Shown one piece after another: positions 2-16,733 of a DNA stretch of 39,937 bases. The translations under genes and the position numbers were made by a program. Numbering within the stretch: the first letter of the stretch is position 1; each line of letters starts with the position of its first letter. The notes under the pieces were generated by a model. That model was not told the DNA's origin, did no database searches, and was given only the letters and a program-made list of their open reading frames with translations. The DNA is from Microcaldota archaeon (GTDB lineage Archaea; Micrarchaeota; Micrarchaeia; Micrarchaeales; CABMGC01). Where the stretch lies: positions 1-39,937 of the forward strand of contig JAKAUU010000021.1 in assembly GCA_021817505.1 (NCBI GenBank), in the 5' to 3' direction.

Positions 2-1774
2 CTTGTAGAGAGATACCTTAAAGCCCAGAAAATGTTCGATATAGACTATTCTAAGGTAAGGTACAGCGAAGTCGTAAATGTGGACCTTTCAGATATTAAG
101 CCAAGTGTATCAGGGCCTTCGCAGCCTAAGCAGGAGATGCCTTTAAGCAGCATACGATCAAATTTCACCGACATCTTCCTTAGTGGGGACGGGCAGTCTG
201 CAAACGGATTAACCCAGAAAGACTACACAAGATGGTCTAGCGAGAGCGAGGTTCCAGACAACGGCAAGATAAAGAGTGCACCTATGCATTCCGCTCCGAA
301 GAGCGCTATTATAAGATATGAAAACCATGATGTAAAGCTCTCGGAAGGGGACGTTGTAATAGCATCGATAACGAGCTGTACGAACACGAGCAATCCGTCG
401 GTGATGATAGGAGCGGGCCTTCTCGCAAAGAAGGCGATTGAAAAGGGCCTAAGCGTGGACACAAGAAAGGTGAAGACCAGTTTCGCTCCAGGTTCAAGGG
501 TAGTTATAGACTATCTCACGGCGCTCAACCTGATAGAGCCTCTTGAGAAACTTGGCTTTGGCCTTGTCGGCTTCGGCTGCATAACCTGCATAGGCAATTC
601 TGGTCCTCTGATAGAGAAACAGAGCGATGCAATAAACAGCAACAACCTGGCGGTTGCCTCAGTGCTGTCAGGAAACAGGAACTATGAGGCAAGGATACAC
701 CGCGATGTAAGGGCAAACTACCTTATGTCGCCTCCGCTAGTAGTCGCATTTGCAATAGCGGGAACGGTGCTTAAGGATCTTGAGAGCGAACCGCTTGCCA
801 GGAATGGCAATGGGGAAGATATTTATCTAAAAGACATATGGCCTAGCCAGGAAGAGATAAACCAGCTTGTGCAAAAGGCAGTAAGCCCTAATCTATTTGC
901 AAAGGAGTATGGTGCAGACCTGTTCAAAGTAAATAAATACTGGAATGATATAGAAGGTGCAACGGGCCAGGTCTACGGCATAGATGAAAAGAGCACGTAC
1001 ATCAAACTGCCTCCGTTCTTTGATAGCTTCAATCCGTCTGGGACCAGCCATATAACTCCAATAAACAATGCAGCGGTCCTGGCGGTCTTTGGCGATTCTC
1101 TCTCAACAGACCACATCTCTCCCGCAGGAGCCATAGGCAAGGACAGCCCGGCAGGCAGATACCTGCAGGAAAAAGGCATCGCATACAAGGACTTCAACAC
1201 CTACGGATCAAGGAGGGGAAACCACGAAGTCATGATGCGCGGCACATTCTCCAATAACCGTATAAAGAACCTGCTCCTCCAAGGCGAGGAAGGAGGCAAT
1301 ACCATACATTTTCCAGATAACCAGAAAATGCCGATATACGATGCAGCTATGCAATACGCTGCGGATAAGAGGCCGCTTGTCGTATTTGCGGGAAAGGAGT
1401 ATGGTTCAGGAAGCTCCAGAGACTGGGCTGCCAAAGGGCCTATGCTCCTAGGGGTAAAGGCCGTTATCGCACAGAGCTTCGAGCGCATACACAGAAGCAA
1501 TCTGGTAGGCATGGGGATTATACCTATGCAATTCAAGGATGGGCAGGGCGCAGAAAACCTGCAGATAGACTTTTCCAGGCCTGTAAATATATCATTAGAC
1601 GATGAGATAACTCCAAAAGGAAGGGCCAAAATCAGGTACTTCGGCAAATCAGGAAATGAAAAGGAAGCAGAACTGATTATAAGGATAGATACGGAGATTG
1701 AGCTTGAGTATTTCAAGGCAAACGGAATATTGAATTATGTTTTAAAGGATATAACTTCCAAGAATAGGAAATGA
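2..1774 (+). CDS. acn: Aconitate hydratase, 5'-truncated by the window edge
   Basis: Aconitase of the AcnA/IRP1 type, which interconverts citrate and isocitrate in the TCA cycle. The frame is open to the window edge, so the visible ~590 residues are the C-terminal two thirds of a protein of about 890. The three 4Fe-4S cysteines are visible in SITSCTNTSN and GCITCIGNSGP. The C-terminal swivel domain shows DSLSTDHISPAG, GNHEVMMRGTF and the substrate-binding stretch KEYGSGSSRDWAAKG. The malate:quinone oxidoreductase gene starts 4 bases after the stop, and citrate synthase and isocitrate dehydrogenase lie within 6 kb, so this is part of a TCA-cycle cluster. The family call is very secure. Whether the first ATG in view (base 32) is used is irrelevant because the coding frame continues upstream. 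Confidence 0.97.
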   Translation, partial: LVERYLKAQKMFDIDYSKVRYSEVVNVDLSDIKPSVSGPSQPKQEMPLSSIRSNFTDIFLSGDGQSANGLTQKDYTRWSSESEVPDNGKIKSAPMHSAPKSAIIRYENHDVKLSEGDVVIASITSCTNTSNPSVMIGAGLLAKKAIEKGLSVDTRKVKTSFAPGSRVVIDYLTALNLIEPLEKLGFGLVGFGCITCIGNSGPLIEKQSDAINSNNLAVASVLSGNRNYEARIHRDVRANYLMSPPLVVAFAIAGTVLKDLESEPLARNGNGEDIYLKDIWPSQEEINQLVQKAVSPNLFAKEYGADLFKVNKYWNDIEGATGQVYGIDEKSTYIKLPPFFDSFNPSGTSHITPINNAAVLAVFGDSLSTDHISPAGAIGKDSPAGRYLQEKGIAYKDFNTYGSRRGNHEVMMRGTFSNNRIKNLLLQGEEGGNTIHFPDNQKMPIYDAAMQYAADKRPLVVFAGKEYGSGSSRDWAAKGPMLLGVKAVIAQSFERIHRSNLVGMGIIPMQFKDGQGAENLQIDFSRPVNISLDDEITPKGRAKIRYFGKSGNEKEAELIIRIDTEIELEYFKANGILNYVLKDITSKNRK

Positions 1775-1778
1775 TAGG

Positions 1779-3149
1779 ATGTCTGAATCTTATGATGTAG
1801 TGATAGTCGGCGGAGGGATAACGGGTGCATCCCTGCTTTACATATTGAGCAAATATACCGATATAAAGAGGATTCTGCTCCTCGAGGAGTACGGATCATT
1901 TGCCTCTTTAAATTCAAACTCGAACAATAACGCGCAGACTCTCCACTTTGGAGACATAGAGACGAATTATTCGTTGGAAAAATCAAGGGAGACAAAGGAG
2001 GAAGCCGAGATAGTTATCAAGTATCTTTCCATGCTGCCAAAAAAGGATTACGACATGATAACGAAAAAATGCGGGAAGATGGTTCTTGGTGTAGGAGAGG
2101 AAGAGATAAACAAGCTTGACGGGATCTATGATTCAGGGCTTAAGCATATATTCCCTGGTCTTAGGAAGATAGGCCCGAATGAGATAGCAAGATTGGAACC
2201 GAACGTAATGAAGAAAAGAGCGATTGATGAAAAGGTAGAGGCTCTAAAGTCGGATAACGGGCAGATGGTGAACTTCAGGAACCTTACTAATTCATTTGTT
2301 AAAAGGGCCAAGGCTGCCAAGATCGGAAGGATCAATGTAAGGCTGAATGCAAAGGTATTGTCCGTAAATGGCAGCGCAGGGGATTTCAATATTTCAACGC
2401 ATGATCGCACATATAAGGCACGTTTCGTAGTATTCTGTGCAGGAAGCTACAGCCTATATTTCGCAAAGATGCTAGGCTATCAGAAGAACCTTTCCGTATT
2501 ATGCGTCGGGGGCAACTTCTATACCGCTCCCAAGGTCCTTAACGGGAAGGTGTACAGGGTGCAGGAAGGCGGCATACCTTTTGCCGCAGTTCACGGAGAT
2601 CCCGATATAACCAACCAGCACATAACCCGTTTCGGCCCTACCGTGACTATATATCCCGAACTTGAAAAGGGCAAACCTTCAACGATGTTTGATTACTTCA
2701 AGACCTTTAATTTTGACCTTGCAACCTCTGCAAGCCTGCTAAATATACTTGCAAACAAGGACATACGCCGCATACTCTGGAATAACGCATTCTATGACCT
2801 GCCCGGAATCGGCACAAGCATATTCCTCAAAAGAGAGGTATCCAAGATAGTCCCATCTTTAAGGCCCAAAGACATAATGCTTGCCCCGCACATGGGAGGC
2901 ATAAGGCCCCAGATAATGGATGAGAAAAAGAAGGCTCTTGTTCTAGGAGAGTCGAAGACAAAAGAGGACGGCGTGATATTCAACATTACCCCTTCGCCAG
3001 GAGCTACCTCATGCCTTGCAAGTGCCATAGAGGACATGTCATACATATGCGATCAGATAGGTGCAAGGATAGACCTTAAGGCAGTGGAAGGCACTCTTGT
3101 CAACAAGGAAACGATGCCGATAACGATGCGCAAGCTTAAGAACTGGTGA
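1779..3149 (+). CDS. mqo: FAD-dependent malate:quinone oxidoreductase-like protein
   Basis: Predicted peripheral membrane flavoprotein that oxidises malate to oxaloacetate and passes electrons to quinone. It has 456 residues. An N-terminal FAD-binding Rossmann motif (VVIVGGGITGASL) is followed by an NSNSNNNAQTLHFG stretch that resembles the N-rich Mqo signature after the first strand, and a C-terminal GATSCLASAIEDM segment typical of the family's FAD end. It starts 4 bases after aconitase, almost certainly in the same transcript. With citrate synthase and isocitrate dehydrogenase nearby, Mqo rather than NAD-malate dehydrogenase would feed electrons to a respiratory chain. A related L-2-hydroxyglutarate oxidase (LhgO) activity cannot be excluded from sequence alone. 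Confidence 0.85.
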   Translation: MSESYDVVIVGGGITGASLLYILSKYTDIKRILLLEEYGSFASLNSNSNNNAQTLHFGDIETNYSLEKSRETKEEAEIVIKYLSMLPKKDYDMITKKCGKMVLGVGEEEINKLDGIYDSGLKHIFPGLRKIGPNEIARLEPNVMKKRAIDEKVEALKSDNGQMVNFRNLTNSFVKRAKAAKIGRINVRLNAKVLSVNGSAGDFNISTHDRTYKARFVVFCAGSYSLYFAKMLGYQKNLSVLCVGGNFYTAPKVLNGKVYRVQEGGIPFAAVHGDPDITNQHITRFGPTVTIYPELEKGKPSTMFDYFKTFNFDLATSASLLNILANKDIRRILWNNAFYDLPGIGTSIFLKREVSKIVPSLRPKDIMLAPHMGGIRPQIMDEKKKALVLGESKTKEDGVIFNITPSPGATSCLASAIEDMSYICDQIGARIDLKAVEGTLVNKETMPITMRKLKNW

Positions 3150-3165
3150 TTAAGTAAAGTACCAT

Positions 3166-4206
3166 CTGCAATGCGTGAGATGCAGGGAAAAATACGACGG
3201 CAGTTTCGCATCACAGATATGCGGGAAGTGCGACTCCCTGCTTAATGTCATCTACGATGAAAAGCATAGATTCAGTTATCCAAAGGAGAATCTCTTTTGG
3301 TCCTATGAGAAGTTTTTCCCCGAATGCGATTACAAGCATTTCAAAGCCGGGGGCACAAATATCATAATAGCCGATGAAGACGGCCTTTACCTTAAGGTAG
3401 AGACGACAAATCCTACCAGGTCATTCAAGGACCGCGGTTCTCTGATAGAGATAAACAAAGCCGCAGAGTATGGGTACAGGGAGGTTGTCTGCGCATCTAC
3501 GGGGAACATGGCATATTCAATTGCGCACTTTTCAAAGAAATTCGGGATAAAGGCAAAGGTCTTCATAAGCAAAAATGCAAACAAGGACAAGGAGATGCTG
3601 ATAAGAGGCACGCACGACGCGGATCTTACAGAAGTGAACGGGGATTTCACAGATGCACAGTCCGCTGCGATAAAGTATTCGAAGGAAAAAGGAGCCTTCC
3701 TTACAGGAGATTACTGCTATAGGAAAGAGGGACAAAAGACAGTAATATACGAATCCATGTACGATCTTAGGTCAGTAGACAATATCATTCTGCCTGTAGG
3801 GAATTCGACACTGCTGGCAGGTGCTTTGGAAGCCATAAAGTACATGAAGCAGTCGAATGCAATAAAGAGCGTGCCTAAGATAATAGGAGTTGAGGCGGAG
3901 GGGGCAAAACCTCTTTTTGAAGCTTTTAAATCAGGCAGACCTGTTTCAAGGGAGAAGGTAAATACCAAGGCCGATGCTATAGCCGTAGGATTTCCCACAT
4001 TCGGCGATGAGAGCATAAGGCTGCTAAAGGAGCTAGGAGGGGAAGTGGTTACAGTAACTGACAAGGAGATGGAGAACGAGCAGGAGAAACTCAGGAAGAT
4101 GTACGGGATAGAGGCTGAGCTTGGCGGAGTTGCCAGCATTGCGGCATACCGAAGGCTCTCAAATGAGGGAAAGACCCTTGCAGTAATTACCGGAGGAAAT
4201 GTCTGA
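3166..4206 (+). CDS. thrC: Threonine synthase, N-terminus upstream of any standard start codon
   Basis: PLP-dependent enzyme converting O-phosphohomoserine to threonine. The Schiff-base lysine lies in TNPTRSFKDRGS, followed by the ASTGNMAYS phosphate-binding loop and a glycine-rich PVGNSTLLAG segment. The first standard start is GTG at 3175. However, the same frame is open upstream to a TAA at 3151 and encodes V-K-Y-H-L-Q-C before it. This adds the first cysteine of a C-V-R-C...C-G-K-C zinc ribbon that many threonine synthases carry. No ATG, GTG or TTG exists in that extension. CTG at 3166 is given here as the start; GTA at 3154 sits 3 bases after a GGTGAT ribosome-binding sequence. The stop abuts the convergent citrate synthase stop with no spacer. 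Confidence 0.9.
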   Translation: MQCVRCREKYDGSFASQICGKCDSLLNVIYDEKHRFSYPKENLFWSYEKFFPECDYKHFKAGGTNIIIADEDGLYLKVETTNPTRSFKDRGSLIEINKAAEYGYREVVCASTGNMAYSIAHFSKKFGIKAKVFISKNANKDKEMLIRGTHDADLTEVNGDFTDAQSAAIKYSKEKGAFLTGDYCYRKEGQKTVIYESMYDLRSVDNIILPVGNSTLLAGALEAIKYMKQSNAIKSVPKIIGVEAEGAKPLFEAFKSGRPVSREKVNTKADAIAVGFPTFGDESIRLLKELGGEVVTVTDKEMENEQEKLRKMYGIEAELGGVASIAAYRRLSNEGKTLAVITGGNV

Positions 4207-5355
4207 CTACCTTTTATCTATAGGCACGTACTCCCTGTCAAGCGTTCCGTTGTAATATTCAAGCGGGCGTATGAGCTTGTTCTCCCTGAGATACTGTATT
4301 ATGTGAGCGCACCATCCCGGAATCCTGCTTGCAGCGAATATGGGCGTGAAAAGGTAAATGTCTATCCCAAGGTCGGTGTAGACCGGCCCCGAGAAAAAGT
4401 CGACGTTGGGCCATATCCCATGGCTTTTCCCTATCCTGTCCACCATGAGCTTCTCGGCTGCCAGCGCGATGTTTGTCAGGTTCCTCACCTCCTCATCAGC
4501 GCTCCCCTGCAGTTCCTCCAGCCTCTTTTTTATTATCCTTGCCCTCGGATCGTAGGTCTTGTAGACGCGGTGCCCGAAGCCCATGATCTTCTTCTTCCCG
4601 GCAAGCGCTTCCTCTATATACTTAACAGTATGCTCTGGCCTACCTATCTCGCGCATCATCTGCAGCGCAGCCTCATCCGCACCTCCGTGCAAAGGCCCTT
4701 TCAGCGTGCCTATCGCTGAGGTTACTGCCGAATGCATGTCTGACAGGGTAGAGGCCGTGACTATGCCTGAAAATGTTGATGCGTTGGAGCTGTGCTCAGC
4801 ATGCAGCAGGAACATCGTATCGAGTATCTTCACATGCTCATCTTTAGGCTTTGAGCCGTTTAGCATGTACAGGAAATTCTCTATGTGCCCCATGGACGGA
4901 TCAGGCCTTACATAGCCTCTGCCTGCCCTTACGCTGCCTGTGGCTGCGACTATCGATGCTATCTTTGATATGAGCCGTATGCTCTTTCTCATGTTAGAAG
5001 GTTCGGTATCATCAGCAGCATCCTTGTCAGAGAATGCAAGCATCGAAACCGCGCTTCTGAGCACGTCCATCTCATCGGAACTCTTTGCCAGTTTCTCTAT
5101 GACCATAACCACTTCATCGGGAAGATCCCTTTCAGAGGCGAGGCTCTTTCTGAAAACAGACAATTCAGATGCGCTGGGAAGCCTTTCATTAAGCAAAAGA
5201 TAGCATACCTCCTCGAAGTTAGAGTTCCCGGCAAGCGTCTCTATAGAATAACCGCAATAATACAGCCTGCCGTTTATCCCGTCAACCTTGCATATTCCGG
5301 ATTCCGTAAAGTATACTCCTTCCAGCCCATGCTTTATCTCAGGTGCGTCAACCAT
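4207..5355 (-). CDS. gltA: Citrate synthase
   Basis: Condenses oxaloacetate and acetyl-CoA to citrate, the entry step of the TCA cycle. At 382 residues it has the usual length of the short archaeal and Gram-positive type. Catalytic residues are visible: H223 in LHGGADEA, H262 in GFGHRVYKTYDPRA and D319 in NVDFFSG. It is convergent with threonine synthase with no intergenic base. A TATA-like AT-rich element on the minus strand around 5386-5394 lies about 35 bases upstream of the ATG, which implies a very short 5' leader. A methylcitrate synthase cannot be ruled out, but the neighbouring aconitase and isocitrate dehydrogenase favour the TCA role. Confidence 0.96.
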   Translation of the reverse strand: MVDAPEIKHGLEGVYFTESGICKVDGINGRLYYCGYSIETLAGNSNFEEVCYLLLNERLPSASELSVFRKSLASERDLPDEVVMVIEKLAKSSDEMDVLRSAVSMLAFSDKDAADDTEPSNMRKSIRLISKIASIVAATGSVRAGRGYVRPDPSMGHIENFLYMLNGSKPKDEHVKILDTMFLLHAEHSSNASTFSGIVTASTLSDMHSAVTSAIGTLKGPLHGGADEAALQMMREIGRPEHTVKYIEEALAGKKKIMGFGHRVYKTYDPRARIIKKRLEELQGSADEEVRNLTNIALAAEKLMVDRIGKSHGIWPNVDFFSGPVYTDLGIDIYLFTPIFAASRIPGWCAHIIQYLRENKLIRPLEYYNGTLDREYVPIDKR

Positions 5356-5668
5356 TAAACTACCGAATAATAGTGCTTATCAATGAATTTAAGGTTTTTC
5401 AGGAAAAAAGAGGCCACCGGTAAAGGCAGTATTTAAAGGCTTGCCAAAATGCATATATACTTGAACTGCCATAAATAGTATCAAGGAGGGTTATTCAGAA
5501 AGCAAGCAACTTCTTATCCTACAAGTCTGAACAAAGAAAGTGACAATCTAAAACTTTTTTCTAATCTTGATTAATTTTCCGGATTTAAGTCACATTCCAT
5601 ACTTCTAGAGCGTTGAATATGCCTGCTGTCTGAGATCCTCCTTAGCAAAAAACAAAACTAGTGTAAAC
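5356..5668. promoter_or_regulatory. Divergent promoter region, no gene seen
   Basis: This 313-base spacer lies between the minus-strand citrate synthase and the plus-strand HAD phosphatase. It is AT-rich, with TATA-like elements on both strands (minus strand near 5386-5394 and 5430-5440; plus strand near 5448-5460). I find no convincing open frame, RNA gene or repeat. It probably holds both promoters. The exact start sites cannot be fixed from sequence. Confidence 0.5.
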
Positions 5669-6241
5669 ATGAATAACAAAGACATGAAGAAGGAAATAAT
5701 ATTCTTCGATGCAGACGGTACTTTATGGTACCCAAAAAAGACAAAGTTCGGCGAAAAACCCTGGTGGATATACTTCGATGAAAAAACCGCCTCTGACGAC
5801 CCGCTAGAGCATCTGACCCTGATGCCTAACGTGAGGAACACTCTAAAAAGGCTAAACGGCATGGGCCTGGTTCTTGTCCTGGTATCCCAATTGCCCTTCC
5901 CAGAAAAAATAGCAAATGAACAACTGAGAAGACTAACGACCCATTTCGGCATATACGAGTTTTTTGATCAAATCCGTGCGTCGCATTCGAGCATAACCAA
6001 AGGGATTCCTGATCCGAAGCATTTTGCCATCCTTGAGGTCCTCAGGGAAAGAAAGATACCTAAAAGCAGGGCCTTGATGGTCGGTGACTCGTACACTTTT
6101 GATTATCTTATGGCAAGGAGAGACGCCAAGATAGACTGTGTTCTGATAAACGGATTCAAGTACACAAAGGAGCTTAAGGAATACAACAGGGTACAGCGGA
6201 AGATCGATAATCTGGACAAGATCTTTGGGTATTTAAGCTGA
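5669..6241 (+). CDS. HAD-superfamily phosphatase (MDP-1-like)
   Basis: A 190-residue haloacid dehalogenase-fold hydrolase. Motif I is FFDADGTLW, with nucleophile D14 and acid/base D16. Motif II is a serine in LVSQ, a lysine lies in SITKGIPDP, and motif III is GDSYTFDYLMARR. The short cap and WYPKKTKF stretch after motif I recall the magnesium-dependent phosphatase-1 branch, which acts on sugar or protein phosphates. The substrate is not predictable. The gene stands alone, 6 bases from the convergent isocitrate dehydrogenase. Starts at ATG 5669 or ATG 5684 are both possible and differ by five residues. Confidence 0.85.
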   Translation: MNNKDMKKEIIFFDADGTLWYPKKTKFGEKPWWIYFDEKTASDDPLEHLTLMPNVRNTLKRLNGMGLVLVLVSQLPFPEKIANEQLRRLTTHFGIYEFFDQIRASHSSITKGIPDPKHFAILEVLRERKIPKSRALMVGDSYTFDYLMARRDAKIDCVLINGFKYTKELKEYNRVQRKIDNLDKIFGYLS

Positions 6242-7411: not shown

Positions 7412-7498
7412 AGTAAAACCAAAGAACTCTGCAGGGAAAAATACTTATTATTATGCAGGTCTGAACGGCAGCCCACCACAACTGCCAACTTCTAAAGA

Positions 7499-7663
7499 TC
7501 AGTGCTCGAACAGGCTCTCAAACTCCTGCAATTTTTCTTTTGCATTCTTGAAGTACACCTCAAACTTTATGTCATTGCTCTTCCAGCACTCCTCAGCAAG
7601 GCGTATATTCTCATTTATCTCTTCGAACATCTTCTCAGCTATAACTTTTGACGCATCGGCCAT
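7499..7663 (-). CDS. Small helical protein of unknown function
   Basis: I do not recognise this gene. From ATG 7663 it encodes about 54 residues that look almost entirely helical and charged (many E/K, heptad-like spacing in the KNAKEKLQEFESL part). The ATG at 7663 is chosen over an upstream one at 7702 because a strong GGAGGT ribosome-binding sequence lies 7 bases before it. It follows, on the same strand, upstream of isocitrate dehydrogenase with an 87-base gap, and it borders the accessory region on the other side. It is probably a real small cytosolic protein. Confidence 0.55.
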   Translation of the reverse strand: MADASKVIAEKMFEEINENIRLAEECWKSNDIKFEVYFKNAKEKLQEFESLFEH

Positions 7664-7790
7664 AGGCTCTACCTCCACAAATATTTGCAGCAATCGCCGC
7701 ATTCCTCCAAATAAAACAGTCGAATTTTATCGGAGCTTTTCATTTACATGCCAGCTTTAAAAAACAGTAACCACTGCCAGTTTTACTGGA

Positions 7791-7880
7791 ATAATAAAAA
7801 TAAACGCCAGATAAGATAGCGTGGTCATTTGTCAAGCGCTTTGTTGGAGGCGAATGTAAGTATTTGTTAATATTTGTTAA
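7791..7880 (+). repeat. Accessory-region repeat, copy A
   Basis: Most degenerate copy of the dispersed repeat. It shares ATAAAAATAAACGC, the central CATTTGTCAAGCGC and GAATGT blocks with the other three. The part matching the tRNA acceptor end in B and C reads AACGCCAGATAAGA here (7803-7816), so it belongs with copy D. It lacks the T-arm-like extension seen in C and D. The AAGCGCTT core is palindromic. Confidence 0.8.
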
Positions 7881-7930
7881 CATTAAATAATAATCTGTAA
7901 TAGATGTACATTTCGTCGTAAGCCAAAAGA

Positions 7931-7940
7931 TATATTTATA
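7931..7940 (+). promoter_or_regulatory. TATA box of the methyltransferase-like gene
   Basis: TATATTTATA is a strong archaeal TATA match. Transcription would start about 25 bases downstream, near 7961-7964, giving a leader of roughly 12 bases to ATG 7976 or a leaderless TTG start at 7964. Confidence 0.5.
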
Positions 7941-7975
7941 AATGAGAATTTTAATTTATTTACTTGATTACAACA

Positions 7976-9538
7976 ATGTCCAGAGTCAGAACTATAACTA
8001 CACCTGAAAAGCACTACGATAGTGATCCAGCTAAGGCTAAGGTCCATACTATGCTGGGTGAAATGCTTGATGCCACCCTGCTCACTTTCAGGAAACCTTC
8101 AGAGATAAAAGTATTGCATTTTGCAGGTATAGATGCGCAGGAAACAAAGGCAGTATACCTTTCAAGGGGAATACTCCCACAAAACATAACTACTTTGGAA
8201 AGAGATCCGGAGATAGCAAGAGCTATAGAGTCACAGTCTCTAGGGATAAAAATAATCAATTCAGATCTTGAAGATTATGTAAGAGAAACTGCAAGATTCG
8301 GACATAATGTTATAAGTCTTGATTTTACCGGTCCATTATCTGATTCAACCATGTCCTCAATTGGCAAGCTTCTACACTCTTCTACTGAACGTAACATCGT
8401 TTTGCATACAGCAAATCTTTTAAGAAGAAACCGAGAAGAGTTTCTAGCAGTTACCGGGATAGATGCCATAAATACCTCCCCAAGATTAATGGGAACCGGA
8501 AGTAATTATACATTCTTAGCCGATAGCCTTGAAAGAGACCAAAGCGATTTAAATAAGGATAATCTGAAGGAGCTAAGGTTAAAAAATTATCCATATCTTA
8601 TCTTGGATTCCATACTAGTGAAAGATAACGATGGAATAATGACGTTTCTAAATTTCTTAAATGCGGAATTTAATCGACAAGATGATCTCACAATTTCAAA
8701 ACTAATTAAAGGAGCGCTCAGGGAAAACGAAATTTCCAAAAAAAGCGGCGTAGATAAATTTTCAGAGCCTATCTTCCATGATATACGAAGAATACATCAC
8801 AATATGAGAAGCGCCTATGCAATAATTCATGCTCTAGGGGAACCATATGGATTGACCGGAAGAGGAACAGAACTTCTGATCGAATCTCTACAAAATGCGT
8901 GCATTAATCCGTACATGCCACAAAAAAACACTAACTATTCATATATATCAGAATCTGGATCTCCGATGAGCGGAAGCATATTCTATCTGCAAAGAAGCAA
9001 ATATCTATATGATGCCGCGTGTGATGTTGCAAGAGCATGCGGATTTCCAATCAGATTCCAAATAAATGATATTAAAGGGTTTACTGCTGCGCTTAAAGTT
9101 TATAGAAGAATCCGTGCTAACCAACACGATGCTTATTACGATGTAATTGACCACCAGGCAACTGAAATACATTTTCTAGGCAATTCTTCCAGACCTGTGT
9201 TAACTAAAAAGAGATTTCTAGAAGCATTAGAAGAGGGCCTGTCAATAGATCAAATCCAGAAAAAGTTTAGAGGCTGGGCAGCCAAACCACTTGCACAATG
9301 GAAGGCCCATCATACTATGGGCACCTATGACACGACCAGACAGGATGAACAAGAAACTATAACTGTAACAGCTGATGATAAGGATGTAGAACGAATAAGC
9401 AAGGACGAAGCACTTGAACTCCTATCTGCAGGAATTCCTCCCAAAGAGATATTTGATGCATATCCTACTTCTTTCACTACTAGGCAGCTCGGGGCTCTAA
9501 AAGCCCACATTACAATGGGTACCTATATAAGAGATTAA
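7976..9538 (+). CDS. Methyltransferase-like protein with two C-terminal AHxTMGTY repeats
   Basis: About 520 residues, not recognised as a named family. Residues ~45-135 read like a class I SAM-methyltransferase Rossmann core: KVLHFAGIDA (glycine loop), then ITTLERDPEIARAI (acidic end of strand 2), then INSDLEDYV, then NVISLDFTGPL (strand 4). A long middle region of unknown fold follows. The C-terminus holds two similar ~45-residue units (encoded near 9200-9334 and 9395-9529), each with an acidic helix, a G-L/I turn and a closing K-A-H-x-T-M-G-T-Y; these look like helix-turn-helix-type DNA-binding modules. The gene sits right after repeat A under its own TATA box. A role in DNA modification or replication of a mobile element is inference. 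A TTG at 7964 is an alternative start. Confidence 0.6.
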   Translation: MSRVRTITTPEKHYDSDPAKAKVHTMLGEMLDATLLTFRKPSEIKVLHFAGIDAQETKAVYLSRGILPQNITTLERDPEIARAIESQSLGIKIINSDLEDYVRETARFGHNVISLDFTGPLSDSTMSSIGKLLHSSTERNIVLHTANLLRRNREEFLAVTGIDAINTSPRLMGTGSNYTFLADSLERDQSDLNKDNLKELRLKNYPYLILDSILVKDNDGIMTFLNFLNAEFNRQDDLTISKLIKGALRENEISKKSGVDKFSEPIFHDIRRIHHNMRSAYAIIHALGEPYGLTGRGTELLIESLQNACINPYMPQKNTNYSYISESGSPMSGSIFYLQRSKYLYDAACDVARACGFPIRFQINDIKGFTAALKVYRRIRANQHDAYYDVIDHQATEIHFLGNSSRPVLTKKRFLEALEEGLSIDQIQKKFRGWAAKPLAQWKAHHTMGTYDTTRQDEQETITVTADDKDVERISKDEALELLSAGIPPKEIFDAYPTSFTTRQLGALKAHITMGTYIRD

Positions 9539-9568
9539 AAATAAGCACTAAATTAACTCTAATTTATG

Positions 9569-10495
9569 CTATGGATTTTTAGGCGTCCACAAAAACCAGC
9601 TGTTTTCTGTGCTATTCCTAAAACCTATTTTCTTATAGAAGCCCTGAGCATCATCCGTAGTAACGTGGACCACTTCCGCACCTAACTCATTTTCCCAAGC
9701 CAATGCCTCTTTTACAAGCTTGCTACCTATGTTCTTGCCACGTGCCTTTTTTGTGACTACTAATTCTTCTATGTATCCATATCTGGATTTTCCATAAGAG
9801 GTAAATGTAGCCAGTAAGAAGCCAACCACCTTATTGCCTTCACGGGCAACAAACGTCTTGCTCTTAAGTAATGGCGTGCCTACTTTGGCTATTCCGCCTT
9901 TTTGTCTTTTAGGGTAAAGTTCATAGTAAAGATCCGTAACGCCATAAGAATCAGATCTTTTAGCCTCTGATATAGTTATGTTTGATTCCATGTTAACATG
10001 CCTAGTTATTACTGATAATAAAACTTCTGGTTCAGAAGCACCATTTAAGATCGTAAATCCTTTCTTTTTTGCAACCGTATCAAGTTTTTTAACATACTCT
10101 AACTGCCGTATACCCGAATATGCTTTCCCATCTCTTTTCCTGAGCCGTTTATCCAGAGTCTTTATACTGACTTTAAGGTAATATATTTCATCAAACATCT
10201 CTGTTATCTCAGGTATGTTGTGTGATAACGCAAACACTACAACAGGGCGTTTTTTAATTAAAACTCTGAGTTTTTTCTCATCTATGCAAAACTTATGGGT
10301 CTTAAACCATTTTTGACTTGGCCTCACTGGAAACCTTACTTTATTTCCTTTCATATCGATCCATTTCGATAGCCCACTTACCGAATCAGTATCTATTGCA
10401 TTTACTCCTTTAGCACTAAGTTTACTTGATAAAAACGTTTTTCCAGAACCTTCTGCCCCAACTACTAATATTGCTTTGTCATGCACTACTATCAA
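9569..10495 (-). CDS. Fusion of a P-loop kinase-like domain and a GNAT acetyltransferase
   Basis: The 308-residue protein has two domains. The N-terminal half (~1-165) opens with a Walker A loop GAEGSGKT, then a DTD triplet, and resembles small-molecule or nucleoside kinase folds (AAA_33/shikimate kinase-like). The C-terminal half (~172-305) is a GNAT acetyltransferase, with motif A residues EELVVTKKARGKNIGSKLV and a typical GFYKKIGF end. The combined activity is unknown; substrates could be antibiotics, polyamines or tRNA/protein amines. The gene is convergent with the methyltransferase-like gene (30-base gap) and divergent from two further GNAT genes within the same repeat-bounded module. 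The start is ATG at 10495; a second in-frame ATG is not near. Confidence 0.75.
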   Translation of the reverse strand: MIVVHDKAILVVGAEGSGKTFLSSKLSAKGVNAIDTDSVSGLSKWIDMKGNKVRFPVRPSQKWFKTHKFCIDEKKLRVLIKKRPVVVFALSHNIPEITEMFDEIYYLKVSIKTLDKRLRKRDGKAYSGIRQLEYVKKLDTVAKKKGFTILNGASEPEVLLSVITRHVNMESNITISEAKRSDSYGVTDLYYELYPKRQKGGIAKVGTPLLKSKTFVAREGNKVVGFLLATFTSYGKSRYGYIEELVVTKKARGKNIGSKLVKEALAWENELGAEVVHVTTDDAQGFYKKIGFRNSTENSWFLWTPKNP

Positions 10496-10601
10496 ATATC
10501 AAACGTTTCATATGCTTAATAACCTTACTCAAGAGGACCTCAAGAAATTTGGCTGAGTGGCATATCTTATTAAATCTGTATTCTAAAAATTAACTGATGC
10601 T

Positions 10602-11135
10602 ATGGCGAGCACATCGAAATTCAAGATAAGGCCACTCCGGTGGAATGATTTTGATGATTATTGCAAAATTTGGCGTTCATTGCAGGAGGAATTGGACAAA
10701 GATCCAAGGCTTACGATGGGCAGGTATAAGGAAAGGGCAGACTGGGAGTTCTTAATCACAGGCTTTTCGGATCTATACAGGGAAATCAAAGCCAGAAGTG
10801 CAAAATCACTTGTCTTAGAGGCGGACGGGCATGTTGTCGGGCTGTGCTCCATAAGGCTCTCAGGATCCACGCATGCGCAACACACCGCAGACCTGACATA
10901 CTATGTAATCAAGCAGTATAGGGGGAAGGGCATGGGCACGGAATTGGTAAAAGAGAGCTTGAAAGACGTTCCTAAAAAATGCGAGATAATTACTGCAGGC
11001 ACGCACAGCAACAACAAGGCTTCAATAGCATTACTTAAGAAATTCGGCTTCAAAAGAGTTGCTTTTATGCCAGGTTTCTCCAAAAGGGGAAAGACATACT
11101 TAAACGTGGAAGAGTATTACAAGAAAGTCAAGTGA
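10602..11135 (+). CDS. GNAT-family N-acetyltransferase
   Basis: At 177 residues this is a single complete GNAT domain. Acetyl-CoA binding motif A is visible as YYVIKQYRGKGMGTELV, and the C-terminal LLKKFGFKRVAFMPGF matches the RimI-like strand-helix end. The N-terminus (FKIRPLRWNDFDDYCKI) is the usual first strand. It acetylates an unknown amine substrate. Its stop overlaps the ribosome-binding GTGAT of the next GNAT gene, so the two are translationally coupled. It could act on proteins (RimI-like) or on small toxic amines. Confidence 0.85.
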   Translation: MASTSKFKIRPLRWNDFDDYCKIWRSLQEELDKDPRLTMGRYKERADWEFLITGFSDLYREIKARSAKSLVLEADGHVVGLCSIRLSGSTHAQHTADLTYYVIKQYRGKGMGTELVKESLKDVPKKCEIITAGTHSNNKASIALLKKFGFKRVAFMPGFSKRGKTYLNVEEYYKKVK

Positions 11136-11139
11136 TAAA

Positions 11140-11667
11140 TTGTCCAAATTCAAAAATCCTCCAAATGCACACACAACGCAGAACAAAATAAGCCTTGCAA
11201 GACTTGAAGATGCCATTCCGGTAGCCAAGCTATTGCAAAGGGTTATGTACCAATGGAAAGATTACTTTACAACTGATTTTATAGGAGGACTTATTGGTAA
11301 AAATGAGGTATATCTGATCTACAGTGAAGGGCAAATGGCAGGCACCATATCGATGAGCACTGATTCTTCATGGGCAACCGATGAAAGAAAACAGGTCAAA
11401 TGGCATGACGAATCTGCAAAAGCACTGTACATATATGATCTTGCAGTTCTTCCAGAACACCAGAATAAAGGTCTTGCTTCTGAGCTCTTACACGAAGTTG
11501 AGGAAGAGACTAAGAAACGAGGGATAAAATATCTAAGAGGCGCAGCCATATCTGATAATCCTAACCTTATCGAATTTTATAAAAAGAGGAACTACACTGT
11601 GGTAGGCAAAGGAAAGGTAAACTGGTGGAAAGAAGACGTCAATTTCATAGAAAAAATCATAAAGTAA
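11140..11667 (+). CDS. GNAT-family N-acetyltransferase, second of a coupled pair
   Basis: A 175-residue GNAT domain with motif A in IYDLAVLPEHQNKGLASELL and the closing NLIEFYKKRNYTVVGKGKV. It starts at TTG 11140, preceded by GTGAT with a 3-base spacer; that GTGAT contains the stop of the upstream GNAT gene. Its own stop codon lies inside the first bases of repeat copy B, so the gene ends exactly where the repeat begins. The substrate is unknown. Together with the P-loop/GNAT fusion it makes three acetyltransferase domains in one small module. Confidence 0.85.
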   Translation: MSKFKNPPNAHTTQNKISLARLEDAIPVAKLLQRVMYQWKDYFTTDFIGGLIGKNEVYLIYSEGQMAGTISMSTDSSWATDERKQVKWHDESAKALYIYDLAVLPEHQNKGLASELLHEVEEETKKRGIKYLRGAAISDNPNLIEFYKKRNYTVVGKGKVNWWKEDVNFIEKIIK

Positions 11668-11775
11668 ACCCTTCCGAGTACATTCCGACTTCAAATAAAA
11701 ATAAACGCTGGGTACGATGGTATGTGCATTTGTCAAGCGCTTTGTTTAAGGTGAATGTGGGCGTTTGGTATAAGT
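11664..11775 (+). repeat. Accessory-region repeat, copy B
   Basis: The copy begins with GTAAACC (overlapping the GNAT stop) and a diverged version of the CCGACGTTA block. It continues through ATAAAAATAAACGC, CATTTGTCAAGCGC and GGTGAATGT. Positions 11704-11717 are identical to the 3' end of the tRNA-Ser gene (acceptor strand, discriminator and first T-stem bases). AAACGC near the left and GCGTTT near the right form a short inverted pair. Confidence 0.85.
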
Positions 11776-11792
11776 AACATGGAATATATGCG

Positions 11793-12197
11793 TTAGTCTA
11801 CAATGTTCATCCTGCTCTCTTCTTTCAGTAGCCTGTCAAAAGTAACTAATGTCAGTATGCCCTGTGTTTTGCACATTGCAATTATGCTGCAGTCTGTAAA
11901 GCTTAAACTTAACTTTTTCTGTGCCTTAAACACACGCCAAGCTTCAAGAAACAAGGACGAGTCCATGTTTAGTACAGAAACAGTATCAAGAATTTTGTTC
12001 CCAGTTTCTATAGTCTTTGCAAAGTTGCCGGTCCTGGATAGCAGTGTGGTCATTGTCTCATCAAAGATATAATCGGTGATTACTGCCGTTCCATATTTGT
12101 CGTTATCTATTTCTTTTGCTATTTTAACTGCTTTTTCATGGTATTCATCCTTTTCATTAGAGTACGCTACCAAAAAGCTGGAATCCAGGAATATCAT
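11793..12197 (-). CDS. vapC: PIN-domain toxin (VapC-like)
   Basis: A PIN-fold endoribonuclease of about 134 residues from ATG 12197. The acidic metal-binding residues are visible: IFLDSSFLVA (first Asp), DYIFDETM (Glu), SFTDCSI (Asp) and TFDRLL (Asp). VapC toxins cut tRNA or rRNA when freed from the antitoxin. The ATG at 12197 is preferred over an upstream start at 12263 because PIN domains begin right at the first strand. The antitoxin gene ends 4 bases upstream. The pair forms its own operon between repeats B and C and probably stabilises the module. Confidence 0.88.
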   Translation of the reverse strand: MIFLDSSFLVAYSNEKDEYHEKAVKIAKEIDNDKYGTAVITDYIFDETMTTLLSRTGNFAKTIETGNKILDTVSVLNMDSSLFLEAWRVFKAQKKLSLSFTDCSIIAMCKTQGILTLVTFDRLLKEESRMNIVD

Positions 12198-12201
12198 CAG
12201 A

Positions 12202-12429
12202 TTACCTATACAGCACCTTATCAATCTCAGTGCTAGAATGCTCCGTTCCTTTTCCCCAGTCAAATGTTGGAATGTCTGAAAGCTTTCCTTTAGGTTTCTC
12301 GCTGCGCGTTTTAAGCCATAGTTCTATCGCTTGGGTAAGTGCGTCGCCAATCTTTAGATCTTCTTCGGCTGCCTTTGCCTTAAGCTTTCTGAAAATGCTC
12401 TCCTGTATATTTCTTATAGTAATATTCAT
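12202..12429 (-). CDS. vapB: VapB-like antitoxin with ribbon-helix-helix N-terminus
   Basis: About 75 residues. The N-terminal MNITIRNIQESIFRKLKAKA strand followed by two helices is a ribbon-helix-helix-type DNA-binding fold. The C-terminal half is proline-rich and charged (PKGKLSDIPTFDWGKG) and would wrap the toxin. It lies directly upstream of the PIN toxin gene. The ATG at 12429 gives the usual RHH start; an ATG four codons upstream is also possible. Antitoxins of this kind repress their own promoter. Confidence 0.82.
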   Translation of the reverse strand: MNITIRNIQESIFRKLKAKAAEEDLKIGDALTQAIELWLKTRSEKPKGKLSDIPTFDWGKGTEHSSTEIDKVLYR

Positions 12430-12532
12430 ACAAATCATCAATGTATTACATGTATAACTAAATATATAAATATTGGCATTTGCCAGCTATCACTAATATA
12501 AATAGATTATGTAGACTGAACCCCGAACCTCC

Positions 12533-13600
12533 TTATGACAAAAACGCTATAATCCTATTTGAATTATTATACGTCCACACTGCAGAATTAAAGCAATTAT
12601 ATAAATTATCTGTTTTTACTTTAGCAGAATTTTTCTGCAGAAGCCAGTAAGTATAATTAAAGAAATCTATATAGTGCGATATCATCAGATTAGGTATAAA
12701 CTTTATCTCTGATGACTTGATACTTCGATATTTTCTATATGTGTCAATGAAGCATTTTGCTTTTTGGAGGTCTATCTCATAACCATCTCTTTCTTTACAA
12801 GAAAATTGTATGAAGTTTGCAATGTCTTTAATTATAGTGTCATTTAGACGACCTACATTATCAAAGTCTATAATGCCGGTCAAATTTTTTCCATTCCAGA
12901 TTAAGTTATCTGGTTTGATGTCCGTATGCAGCGGATACGTTTTTAGACCATTATAATTATCTACTTTGAGACCTTTTAGAATCTTAACTAAAACCATATC
13001 CATTCTTAAAAATTCAGCATCTTCTTTATTCTTTTTCTTCTTTTCAGAAGCCACAGATTCCATCTCTAGGGCAAAACCCAATATCGCTTTCTTGAAAAAT
13101 GGATCTGAAGTTGACTTTCTAATACCTACGGAATTTTTCCTAATAGCGAGTTCATGATACTCAGCCATCATTTTAGCTACTACTTTTAATTCTTGAAGAT
13201 TAAGGTTTTTTCTAACCTGGCCATCAATATACTTATATACCCAGAATAATTTCCCGTTATATGTGATAAACTCTGTTTTTTGTGTACTTAGAACCGGAAT
13301 TGGTATTTTATATATAAAACCTTTGGACTTTAGGTATTTTAGACACTCAAATTCAAATTCCAAAGATTTCTTATCCTTGAACCTGCTAACTTCCCTAAGT
13401 ACGAATCTGCCTTTACCATTAGTTATAATCCAGTTATTGTTCACTACACCTCCTTTCAATGCACTATATTTATAACTGACTATTCCCCAATTAGACAGCA
13501 CTCTGCCAATCTCAGATTTAGTTAACCCCATACGAAACACACGCGCTATAGGATTAGTATTTAGTTCGGGTAAATTTAAATCACATGTGTCTAAAAGCAA
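12533..13600 (-). CDS. APH/ThrB2-type small-molecule kinase
   Basis: At 355 residues this belongs to the aminoglycoside phosphotransferase/choline kinase fold. The catalytic loop is LHTDIKPDNLIW (H225, D227, N232) and the metal-binding loop is IDFDNVG (D245, D247). The N-lobe carries GGVVNNNWII and FVLREV, with a lysine/arginine pair typical of the family. Overall layout is closest to type II homoserine kinases, which would supply threonine synthase. Because it sits in the accessory region between repeats B and C, a resistance-type or cargo role is equally possible. The start may instead be ATG 13531 (MGLTKSEIGRVL), which would remove 23 non-conserved residues. Confidence 0.75.
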   Translation of the reverse strand: MLLDTCDLNLPELNTNPIARVFRMGLTKSEIGRVLSNWGIVSYKYSALKGGVVNNNWIITNGKGRFVLREVSRFKDKKSLEFEFECLKYLKSKGFIYKIPIPVLSTQKTEFITYNGKLFWVYKYIDGQVRKNLNLQELKVVAKMMAEYHELAIRKNSVGIRKSTSDPFFKKAILGFALEMESVASEKKKKNKEDAEFLRMDMVLVKILKGLKVDNYNGLKTYPLHTDIKPDNLIWNGKNLTGIIDFDNVGRLNDTIIKDIANFIQFSCKERDGYEIDLQKAKCFIDTYRKYRSIKSSEIKFIPNLMISHYIDFFNYTYWLLQKNSAKVKTDNLYNCFNSAVWTYNNSNRIIAFLS

Positions 13601-14004
13601 TAATAATTTACATACACGCTTTTAGATAAAACTCCACACGGAACTCCACCCAACTGATGTGAAGTCCTGTTATCTGGAGCATATTTACAAGAATCGAACA
13701 CGTAAACCTTCAGAGCACAGCCCGACGTTAAATAAAAATAAACGCTGGGTACGATACCATGGGCATTTGTCAAGCGCTCTGTTAAGGGTGAATGTTGGCA
13801 TTTGCTAATATTTATTGACAACGGTGCTAAAACGATCCTCGGCTTTGCTCGTTATTTGATACTATCTATTATGACTAAAACAAACTGAATTTAGTATGGC
13901 ACACAACTTGATAGTACTGTATATTAATATTTACGATTCACAAATGAACTGTGAAGGTTTGTCATACAGGTTATATCTTTAATATTTAATCCAGGAAATT
14001 ATCT
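13601..14004. other. Non-coding spacer holding repeat C
   Basis: No credible gene. It holds repeat copy C (13682-13825), a following AT-rich stretch similar to the one after repeat D, and an AT-rich promoter-like segment (GGTTATATCTTTAATATT, ~13968-13985) just before the membrane protein gene. Confidence 0.6.
13682..13825 (+). repeat. Accessory-region repeat, copy C
   Basis: Long copy of ~144 bases. It opens with TACAAGAATCGAACACGTA (13686-13704), matching the tRNA-Ser T-arm at 17 of 19 bases. AACCTTCAGAGCACAGCCCG and the shared ATAAAAATAAACGC block follow. Positions 13741-13754 are identical to the 3' end of the tRNA-Ser gene. It ends with TATTTATTGACA, shared with copy D. Confidence 0.88.
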
Positions 14005-14520
14005 ATGGTTAAAAAGAAAATAACTGAGAAAAAACAGAGTCAAACAGTACGGGTAGCTAAATATGCTGGTATATTAGTCTTGGCTCTAGTTTTAATCGCA
14101 TTATTCCTATCTATTATCCCAGGTTTAGATAACAATCCTTTAGTTTCAAATGTTTGTTCTGCTTCAAGCGGATATACGTGCAGCGGCATTACTATTAGTA
14201 ACTCTGGATTACTTAGTTTTACATTGACTCAGAACACTGGCCAAGCAGAATATAATGTTACTCTTTACCTTACTACTCAATCTAATGGATTGAACACAAC
14301 AAATCCTAATTATACTGTTTCGATTTATCTAGGGCCCAAATTACTTTCAGGGCATAGTGTTAATGTAAGTGTTCAACTCAAACCAGATATGCTTAATGGC
14401 CAAAATCAAAGTACAAACTACAGTGGCTATGCAGTTCTATCATATAGCAACACGAAAAATAACCCTCTAGATATATCTATACAAGTAGCTGGAATAATTG
14501 CATTTGCACAGTTTAAATAA
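14005..14520 (+). CDS. Membrane-anchored extracytoplasmic beta-rich protein (paralogue 1)
   Basis: 171 residues. A basic N-tail (MVKKKITEKK) precedes one membrane segment at ~20-42 (ILVLALVLIALFLSII), giving an N-in anchor. The outside domain is Ser/Thr/Asn-rich with several N-glycosylation sequons and opens with two cysteines eight residues apart (C-SASSGYT-C), likely disulphide-bonded. Its sequence is clearly homologous to the gene at 15736 (shared GxxLPxFT-like, NTGQAEYNVTLY and LKPDMLN blocks), and the promoter regions are similar too. The function is unknown. A short secreted-protein remnant follows immediately. Confidence 0.75.
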   Translation: MVKKKITEKKQSQTVRVAKYAGILVLALVLIALFLSIIPGLDNNPLVSNVCSASSGYTCSGITISNSGLLSFTLTQNTGQAEYNVTLYLTTQSNGLNTTNPNYTVSIYLGPKLLSGHSVNVSVQLKPDMLNGQNQSTNYSGYAVLSYSNTKNNPLDISIQVAGIIAFAQFK

Positions 14521-14535
14521 AAATTAGGTTTATGC

Positions 14536-14649
14536 GTGAAGACGTACTATATCATCCATTTTATGATTACGGCCTCTATACTAATCTGTATAGCATATGC
14601 TCAAATACCGGCGCCCCAACCATATTGGGCAGGGTTTACTACTTACTGA
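14536..14649 (+). pseudogene. Truncated secreted-protein remnant (signal peptide plus WAGF)
   Basis: From GTG 14536 the frame gives a 37-residue product. It has a hydrophobic signal-peptide-like start (MITASILICIAYAQ), then PAPQPYWAGFTTY and a stop. PYWAGF resembles the N-terminal N-W-A-G-Y motif of eqolisin-type (peptidase G1) secreted proteins. It occupies the same place behind paralogue 1 that a longer decayed copy occupies behind paralogue 2. Another open frame of 49 codons from ATG 14532 overlaps it and has no recognisable features. The remnant reading is an inference. Confidence 0.4.
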
Positions 14650-14770
14650 GGGATCTTTCAGGCTGCAAACCTGGGATTTAGTTCACAGGCAGGACCAAGC
14701 ACCAGATAATATTTATTAGTGCTAACTATTAAGATTTCCTATTTTATACGCTTCTTTAATATGCCTAATC

Positions 14771-15052
14771 TCACTTAACATGCTTTCTGTAAAAATTGTC
14801 CCAGCTTTCGAATTCTAAAAAGATAATCTTATTTGCATTTTTATCATAAGAATAAGACAATACAAATGAACTGCCTATGTGAACTCTTCTAAGTCCAAAG
14901 AGATTTGACCTTAACGGTTTGCCTGTTTCAGGATTCTCCAATATTTTGTCGATTTGCTTTAGTATTGCCTTGTATGTTGTCATATCCCTTTTCTTTATCT
15001 TAGCCAAGATTTTTACTAAACTTTCATCTATGCTATGCTCAGATACGGGCAG
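14771..15052 (-). CDS. RelE/ParE-type toxin, probable CTG start
   Basis: RelE-superfamily ribosome-dependent RNase-like toxin of about 93 residues. The core reads ILENPETGKPLRSNLFGLRR then VHIGSSFVLSYSY and a final FLEFESWDNFYRKH, the order seen in YafQ/RelE relatives. The first standard start is TTG 15007. However, the frame is open upstream, and the added residues (P-V-S-E-H-S-I-D-E-S-L-V-K-I-L) fit the missing first strand and helix of the fold. The only near-cognate start there is CTG at 15052. The antitoxin gene ends 24 bases upstream. Confidence 0.72.
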   Translation of the reverse strand: MPVSEHSIDESLVKILAKIKKRDMTTYKAILKQIDKILENPETGKPLRSNLFGLRRVHIGSSFVLSYSYDKNANKIIFLEFESWDNFYRKHVK

Positions 15053-15076
15053 ACAACCAACCTATAATTATCTTTT

Positions 15077-15346
15077 TCAGGCCTTGTAACCAGTAACAAT
15101 CCTGTCAAGATCCTGAATGTTCTTAAACTTGATTGTTTTGCGCTTGCCACTTGCTATGTCTTTTGCCATCTTATTAAGTCTCTTTAATGTATCTATCTTC
15201 ACTTGGCTTTCTGTAGGACGAGTGTCTTCATTCTTCAGTTCAATAAGTACCTCTTCCATCAATTCCTTGATTTTGTCTAATTTTGCATTTATGCTGTTGC
15301 TATCTTCCTGTACTTGGATTGCTTTCATAACTGCCACCAAAGACAT
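15077..15346 (-). CDS. Antitoxin partner of the RelE-like toxin
   Basis: 89 residues, mostly predicted helix with heptad-like spacing. The middle (LDKIKELMEEVLIELKNE) looks like a dimerising coiled coil and the C-terminal part is basic (SGKRKTIKFKNIQDLDRI). I recognise no named antitoxin family. The assignment rests on position: it is directly upstream of, and on the same strand as, the RelE-like toxin, with a small overlap-free gap. The start is ATG 15346, or ATG 15328 (MKAIQVQ). Confidence 0.6.
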   Translation of the reverse strand: MSLVAVMKAIQVQEDSNSINAKLDKIKELMEEVLIELKNEDTRPTESQVKIDTLKRLNKMAKDIASGKRKTIKFKNIQDLDRIVTGYKA

Positions 15347-15735
15347 TATGCTTATTCTAATTTTTAATACTTTCTAGTTGTTCAGAAAACAGAATAAAAT
15401 TTATGCTAACAAGTGATATATTACGAGAATCGAACACGTAAACCTTCAGAGGACAGTCCGACGTTAGATAAAAATAAACGCCGGATAAGATGGCACTGGC
15501 ATTTGTCAAGCGCTTTGTTTAAGGTGAATGTGGGTGTTTGGCAATGTTTATTGACATCAGTGCAGGAAAACAATTCTGACTGCTTTTACTTACCGTTGGT
15601 ATCATCTAATGTAATTAAGATGGAATGAAAAGAGTTAACCCTACCACTTATAGTAAAGTATAATAATATTATAATTAACAAATTACCTGTGTAGGACTGG
15701 TATACAGGCTGTATCTTTAATCTGGGGAATTAAGA
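15347..15735. other. Non-coding spacer holding repeat D
   Basis: No credible gene. It contains repeat copy D (15417-15562) and an AT-rich stretch ending in ACAGGCTGTATCTTTAATC just before the second membrane protein gene. That end is closely similar to the sequence before the first paralogue. Confidence 0.6.
15417..15562 (+). repeat. Accessory-region repeat, copy D
   Basis: Long copy of ~146 bases. It opens with TACGAGAATCGAACACGTA (15422-15440), which differs from the T-arm of the intact tRNA-Ser (16741-16759) at a single base. AACCTTCAGAGGACAGTCCG follows, and then the common blocks. Its acceptor-like segment reads AACGCCGGATAAGA (15477-15490), as in copy A rather than B and C. Confidence 0.88.
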
Positions 15736-16224
15736 ATGATTAAAAAGAAGCATAATCCGGTAGTTAAATATGGGGTTATTGGAGTTGTATTAATCTTAAT
15801 AGGCGTGGTGGTTCTTCTGTCTTCTAGCATTATGATGGGTCCAGATAATCCTCCTCCCCCTCCTACTTCGAGTGCATGTTCTATTTCAACAGGTTATATA
15901 TGTAATAATGTTACTATCACTAATTCTGGTTTACTGAATTTTACATTTATTCAAGATACTGGTCAATCAGAATACAACGTGACTCTTTACTTTACTACTG
16001 TTGGATTGAGTACCACAAATTCAAATTATACCACTTCAATCTATCTTGGATCTGAATTGGCATCAGGACAACCAGTTAAAATAAGTGTCCCTCTCAAACC
16101 AGACATGCTAAATCATAATCATGATACGAACTACGAAGGCTGGGTAAATTTATCATATAGTAATACAAAAAACAACACTCCGAATGTATCTATACTGGCA
16201 GTTAGAATAGTTGCATTTTCATAG
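15736..16224 (+). CDS. Membrane-anchored extracytoplasmic beta-rich protein (paralogue 2)
   Basis: 162 residues, homologous to the protein at 14005 over its whole length. A basic N-tail (MIKKKH) and one membrane segment at ~10-33 come first, then a short proline linker (PPPPPT). The outside domain starts with C-SISTGYI-C and contains TNSGLLNFTF, TGQSEYNVTLYFTT and LKPDMLNHNHDTNY. Several N-x-T/S sequons suggest surface exposure. The function is unknown. A decayed eqolisin-like gene follows on the same strand, as a remnant does behind paralogue 1, so the two-gene unit was duplicated together with the repeat. Confidence 0.75.
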   Translation: MIKKKHNPVVKYGVIGVVLILIGVVVLLSSSIMMGPDNPPPPPTSSACSISTGYICNNVTITNSGLLNFTFIQDTGQSEYNVTLYFTTVGLSTTNSNYTTSIYLGSELASGQPVKISVPLKPDMLNHNHDTNYEGWVNLSYSNTKNNTPNVSILAVRIVAFS

Positions 16225-16260
16225 CATCCATAACTCAAACAAGAACTTAGGGTTTACCTA

Positions 16261-16640: not shown

Positions 16641-16676
16641 GTGTTCGATTCTGTGCCCTATTTAGTACCTGATTGC

Positions 16677-16721: not shown

Positions 16722-16733
16722 CAAATAGTATAA

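Follow-up and report, generated by a model that had tools for sequence, protein, structure and literature searches.

The closest described relatives of the enzyme considered here, in sequence and in structure, are 2 guanine-N2 RNA methyltransferases (MTases): RsmD, the 16S rRNA m2G966 MTase, and Trm1, the tRNA N2,N2-dimethylguanosine MTase. Among enzymes that act on DNA, the gamma-order MTases (M.TaqI type) carry an N-terminal motif, motifs I to VI and VIII, and then a C-terminal recognition region. We analyzed a 39,937-nucleotide stretch of a Microcaldota archaeon genome (hereafter, the window) encoding a 520-amino acid (aa) protein. Our preferred reading, to which we give roughly even weight, is that of an orphan, helix-turn-helix (HTH)-guided, DNA-marking class I SAM-MTase from a family that small-genome archaea share with uncultivated tailed phages. 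The gene and its parts are as follows.

7976 to 9538, plus strand: whole gene, 520 aa (full-length homologues)
7935 to 7946, plus strand: TATA-like TTTATAAATGAG, putative archaeal promoter approximately 30 nt upstream of the ATG (weak)
8006 to 8434, plus strand: first part of the predicted class I MTase core, aa 11–153 (AF2, RsmD structure and profile matches, invariant residues)
8435 to 8920, plus strand: variable, mostly helical insertion between β5 and β6, aa 154–315 (approximately 160 aa), candidate specificity region (low identity, high dN/dS, low pLDDT)
8921 to 9001, plus strand: β6/β7 hairpin YSYISESGSPM, predicted to close the MTase fold, aa 316–342 (strands 318–324 and 330–339; aligned in the RsmD matches)
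9200 to 9328, plus strand: module 1, aa 409–451, three predicted helices, ends KAHHTMGTY (E = 3e-21; AF2)
9395 to 9526, plus strand: module 2, aa 474–517, three predicted helices, ends KAHITMGTY (E = 5e-22; AF2)

The reading frame is open to the stop at 9538 from the ATG at 7976 or from an alternative start, the TTG at 7964. An earlier reading made from the letters alone (hereafter, the sequence-only reading) had placed the gene under a strong promoter; what precedes it is only a TATA-like stretch, TTTATAAATGAG, which occurs once in the window and is matched within 1 mismatch in 36 of 100 window shuffles. A sigma-70 promoter scan was uninformative, the host being an archaeon. The protein has no match above noise or cut-off in Pfam, NCBIfam, PHROGs, or PADLOC, a PDB sequence search with the protein alone returned only noise, and nothing relevant was found in the literature on the motif or on such a family. 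With zero curated families at cut-off, the initial impression that it belongs to no known family holds.

Structure prediction with AF2 yielded a Rossmann-like fold, and the protein almost certainly adopts the class I SAM-MTase fold. In the models, β1 (aa 46–49), β2 (71–74, followed by E75), β3 (92–94), β4 (112–116, with D116), and β5 (140–148) belong to the element order β1-α-β2-α-β3-α-β4-α-β5, insertion, β6-β7, which is that of class I SAM-MTases, and the seven-stranded Rossmann-like sheet with its β6/β7 hairpin is present. The order of strands and acidic residues that the sequence-only reading had discerned by eye is thus real; its placement in the N-terminal region is right for the core and too narrow for the fold as a whole, because the last 2 strands sit behind the insertion, at aa 316–342. 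With a 4-sequence alignment, aa 17–148 were well modeled and a β hairpin appeared at 313–340, and with 21 sequences the block-mean pLDDT of the core was 78 to 97 over aa 21–150; the whole model is middling (mean pLDDT 61, pTM 0.48), and the insertion is poorly defined, with low pLDDT. RsmD (YhhF, HI0767, Rv2966c) has the same class I core and supplied the best structural matches (Z 14.7, 14.5, and 13.6): VIA-align ranked YhhF first (2fpo; Z 14.7, 2.7 Å, 154 residues, model range 13..341), gave Z 14.5 to HI0767 over model residues 13–341, and returned RsmD again from a second AF2 model (Z 13.6). Many class I MTases followed close behind, COMT and PmtA among the matches, so the class of the fold is firm and the substrate is not. 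Since MTases of such fold include small-molecule enzymes (COMT, PmtA), the protein could be an ordinary host MTase of small molecules or protein with protein–protein interaction domains as its C-terminal modules; the sporadic, accessory distribution, the viral homologues, the HTH-like modules, and the lack of biosynthetic neighbors make this highly improbable.

RsmD was also the sole convincing sequence-profile match in the PDB: a profile of 22 archaeal members matched HI0767 (2ift; E = 3.5e-7), aligning LDYTGPF to LDPPFHF, with FAG after β1, an acidic β2 end, and the D of motif IV in common. Predicted fold and profile match together bear out the description of the protein as MTase-like. In genome G171, the best match of the archaeal profile (E = 7.1e-7) is a protein that we take to be Trm1-like from its LDPFGTP motif and layout. 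Because both known relatives are guanine-N2 MTases, they suggest, without proving, an enzyme that acts on an exocyclic amine.

Motif IV, mostly D-[FY]-[TC]-G-P in archaeal members and DFC[GN][GP] in viral ones, reads DFTGP in the window protein, whereas RsmD has DPPF ([DN]PP[FY]); the protein further differs from RsmD in its added insertion of approximately 160 aa between β5 and β6, in its C-terminal modules, and in not being a housekeeping gene. Trm1 likewise has a motif IV of D followed by F, G, and P (LDPFGTP), but its motif spacing is different, it lacks TMGTY modules, and it has its own C-terminal domain; neither DPFGTP, the Trm1 domain layout, nor a Trm1 Pfam match was found in the window protein. 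The motif order is that of gamma-order DNA MTases, yet [DNS]PP[YFW], the motif IV of DNA N6A and N4C MTases, is absent, the recognition part consists of small HTH-like modules, and a large insertion lies inside the catalytic fold. The marks of DNA m5C MTases (PC catalytic motif, ENV) are missing as well, with no PC at motif IV and no C5 MTase Pfam match. By these tests, the protein falls outside the amino-MTase, m5C, RsmD, and Trm1 families.

That its nearest relatives modify rRNA and tRNA raises the alternative of an RNA MTase, an RsmD/Trm1-like N2-guanine or other modifier whose modules would bind structured RNA and through which the element or phage would target host or its own tRNA or rRNA. 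K20, D116, and R151 are also arranged like K-D-K in the K-D-K-E tetrad of RNA 2′-O-MTases, with R151 in the third position and no conserved E in the fourth. A motif IV that is neither DPPF nor DPFGTP argues against an RNA substrate, which we consider rather unlikely; the patchy distribution of the family led us to reject a housekeeping rRNA enzyme.

Residues were counted over 44 members (24 archaeal, 17 viral, and 3 proteobacterial plasmid relatives). K20 and D116 are present in all 44; R151 occurs in all 41 archaeal and viral members, with E or D as the next residue in 40, and is absent from the 3 plasmid relatives. Position 75 is acidic in 43/44 members (E in 24/24 archaeal, D/E in 16/17 viral, and E in 3/3 bacterial), and in the window protein E75 is the acidic residue that closes β2, as in class I MTases. 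Y323 is found in 43/44 members (40/41 archaeal and viral), S325 in 37/44, and M331 in 31/44. The conserved sites occupy the classic places, N-terminal to β1, at the end of β2, in motif IV, after β5, and in β6, and the core motifs are N-terminal KHYxSDxxK, FAGIDAxE at β1, ..LER at β2, LDFTGP at β4, and R151-[N/E/D] after β5. The glycine-rich motif I (E/DxGxGxG) is degenerate: archaeal members have FAGIDAxE, of which just G51 is kept (22/24), and viral members have GGD. Core and modules evolve under purifying selection: for the pair G015/G192, their dN/dS values are 0.17 and 0.15, respectively, and that of the insertion is 0.55 (95% bootstrap 0.36–0.95).

The motif I of archaeal members, which is degenerate, and the unusual motif IV both speak for a further alternative, in which an MTase fold that has lost its catalysis serves as a DNA-binding regulator, nucleotide sensor, or defense component. 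A dead scaffold, however, would need neither the (nearly) invariant K20, D116, R151, and Y323 of archaea and phages nor the lowest dN/dS in core and modules, and we judge this alternative unlikely. Similarity is lower in the insertion than in the core in all comparisons, at 13% identity against 55% for the core between the window protein and G015, and 12% to 27% in distant archaeal pairs. This is the pattern to be expected of a target-recognition region, fast change amid an otherwise conserved catalytic fold; the plain alternative is relaxed constraint.

The duplicated repeats of approximately 45 residues ending in TMGTY that were first noticed by eye were confirmed: the 2 modules, approximately 44 aa each, align locally with a score of 56, and 2,000 shuffles reached at most 39. 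Of 4 homologues tested, 2 show the duplication clearly (one scoring 54, with a shuffle maximum of 45, the other 45, with a maximum of 44), 1 is marginal (31, reached by 78 of 2,000 shuffles), and 1 does not show it. The modules are predicted to be three-helix and HTH-like, with a pLDDT of 85 to 90 across most of module 2 in the 21-sequence AF2 model, and the phage module pattern VAxxLDVSxGxIAAWKAHxTMGTY is by eye a textbook HTH. DUF433 stays below its Pfam gathering score (15.4 against 23.6 bits, E = 0.017) and HTH_23 is sub-threshold in 1 member (E = 0.067); both share the three-helix prediction, and the modules differ from them by carrying KAHxTMGTY after the last helix. A PDB match of the module profile to DotG/IcmE (2.2e-5) was rejected as many weak pieces summed along a repetitive protein. 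The module was not found elsewhere in the 839-kb draft genome (a third match, with E = 0.48, is noise); outside this genome, a 385-aa protein next to an SNF2-MTase fusion (locus L018) and some small proteins carry it with no MTase attached. The sequence-only reading had taken the repeats for DNA-binding modules, with which the predicted HTH-like helices and the sub-threshold DUF433 and HTH_23 matches are consistent; the binding itself we infer to be likely from the three predicted helices, the HTH pattern, the sub-threshold matches, and the MTase-free occurrences. The resemblance of the modules to DNA-binding HTH also speaks against an RNA substrate.

The gene opens a genomic island with the following features.

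7412 to 16732, no strand: variable AT-rich island from icd to tRNA-Ser(GCT), holding the gene (GC, same-genus intervals)
7793 to 7882, plus strand: repeat A, copy 1 (other copies at 11694, 13731, and 15468)

GC content is mostly 0.32–0.42 in the island against 0.42–0.52 in the flanks. In G003, G004, and G005, conserved flanks enclose an interval of just approximately 0.7–2.6 kb. The interval resembles an integration hotspot, its size and content varying among same-genus genomes; the gene was not found in 5 other genomes of the genus (drafts, 73%–89% completeness). Repeat A (approximately 90 nt) is present in 4 copies, all in the island and none elsewhere in the genome, which are 80%–82% identical to the first; it starts near TAAAAATAAACGC, and 3 copies contain GCATTTGTCAAGCGCT. 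The island also carries GNAT, PIN, and phosphotransferase genes, with no recognizable restriction system among its genes and no match to a known plasmid. The absence from the window of a neighboring nuclease or clear defense partner was counted against the DNA-marking reading. As to the suggestion of a modification or maintenance protein of an element, the presence of an island is supported and a modification role is plausible; the enzyme is most likely of mobile or viral origin. Adjoining the gene, 9569–10495 (minus strand) encodes a fusion of a P-loop domain (AAA_18-like, just below cut-off) and a GNAT acetyltransferase, partly common to G001.

Of 301 genomes in the window's phylum, 7 have a full-length or partial homologue, one of the 7 being the Trm1-like match (a class-level search likewise spanned 301 genomes); the phylum to which G301 belongs, presumably a different one, has 14 genomes with homologues among 279. 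In the core tree, the window sequence clusters with 3 others of its own phylum, inside the sequences of the other phylum (98/99 and 100/96 support), a placement that would fit lateral transfer between archaeal phyla. Tandem members are frequent, with 3 coupled copies in G301 contig 11, whose genes overlap by 8 nt, 4 in G301 contig 116, and 3 in G456 contig 11. Array expansion, together with the rapidly changing insertion, is easier to reconcile with DNA-sequence specificity than with a fixed RNA site; the arrays are also a point in favor of a dead fold, as is one member beside HATPase-domain and multi-HTH proteins.

In L018 (G301 contig 116, 4645–16806), the 4 tandem members lie near a methylpurine-DNA glycosylase, the SNF2-MTase fusion, the module-bearing protein, and an AP-endonuclease-like TIM barrel, probably endonuclease IV. 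The member in L111 (G199, 422–6049) adjoins a second MTase, the HATPase-domain protein, and a protein with many HTH repeats, a group that might be a defense or epigenetic cluster. L027 (97–1911, minus strand) encodes a member with a C-terminal HNH-endonuclease-like domain (HNH_3, 1.3e-4; HNH, 5e-4; just below cut-off), and in L032 (G325, 1264–3231, minus strand) a family-like core is fused to a long N-terminal array of repeats of approximately 110 aa, possibly another DNA-reading tail.

The TMGTY repeat was sought in archaeal genomes and in viruses, and besides the archaeal members the peptide AHxTMGTY led to viral contigs, from which a viral profile retrieved 23 IMG/VR loci. Several of these lie on contigs of 140–436 kb, and some members are near terminase, portal-like, or integrase genes. 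The viral proteins have the same three-part architecture, with N-terminal TYxGxSxxK and core, a YxSxxxxxGTP hairpin, and 1 C-terminal KAHxTMGTY module, and hhalign finds the viral profile homologous to the archaeal one (99.1%, E = 6.9e-19). Four queries of 50,697 INPHARED phage records found no relative, and the bacterial relative served as a further query there. The match of viral relative P0007 to phrog_3820 (DNA MTase; E = 0.011) was set aside as too weak. One viral contig with a family member (L072) encodes at 2584–3123 a protein that by eye is ADP-ribosyltransferase-like (YHGTS...GWGFYLT). The plasmid search returned just distant proteobacterial relatives, from Caulobacter (WP_163233874.1), Sinorhizobium, and Citrobacter, one of them annotated as "class I SAM-dependent methyltransferase". 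They are homologous over aa 37–155 (hhalign, 95.6%) and share K20, E75, D116, Y323, and M331, but have no TMGTY module, no R151-[ED], and a longer insertion. MADS mad2 (PADLOC) matched the bacterial relative alone (3.7e-5) and not the window protein.

For DNA marking we counted the RsmD-like core, the profile links, the invariant residues, the viral architecture, the low dN/dS, the island, and the HNH-like homologue; against it, the degenerate SAM loop, the non-canonical motif IV, nearest relatives that act on RNA, and an HTH assignment that comes from prediction and sub-threshold matches. The substrate is probably a nucleic acid, and because the family is common with phages and the HTH-like modules are repeated, the enzyme probably marks DNA chosen by the modules. 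In the proposed mechanism, the core would bind SAM; K20, D116, R151, and Y323 would line an active site for a nucleobase, plausibly for an exocyclic amine as in RsmD and Trm1; the HTH-like modules and the variable insertion would direct the enzyme to selected DNA; and a sequence- or element-specific methyl mark could protect mobile or viral DNA or adjust its expression. We put forward only tentatively, as somewhat doubtful, the wider proposal of a new family of DNA base-modifying MTases of phages and small-genome archaea with the motif K...D-F-T/C-G-P...R-E...Y-x-S, a fast-evolving recognition insertion, a tandem HTH DNA-reading tail, and arrays of differing specificities. To our knowledge, little is known about DNA modification in these archaeal lineages. 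If the substrate is DNA, current profile libraries would be missing a class of DNA-marking enzymes from viruses and mobile elements; the invariant residues and separable modules make the enzyme directly testable, and a family spanning phages and archaea offers a handle on gene exchange with the viruses of uncultivated archaea.
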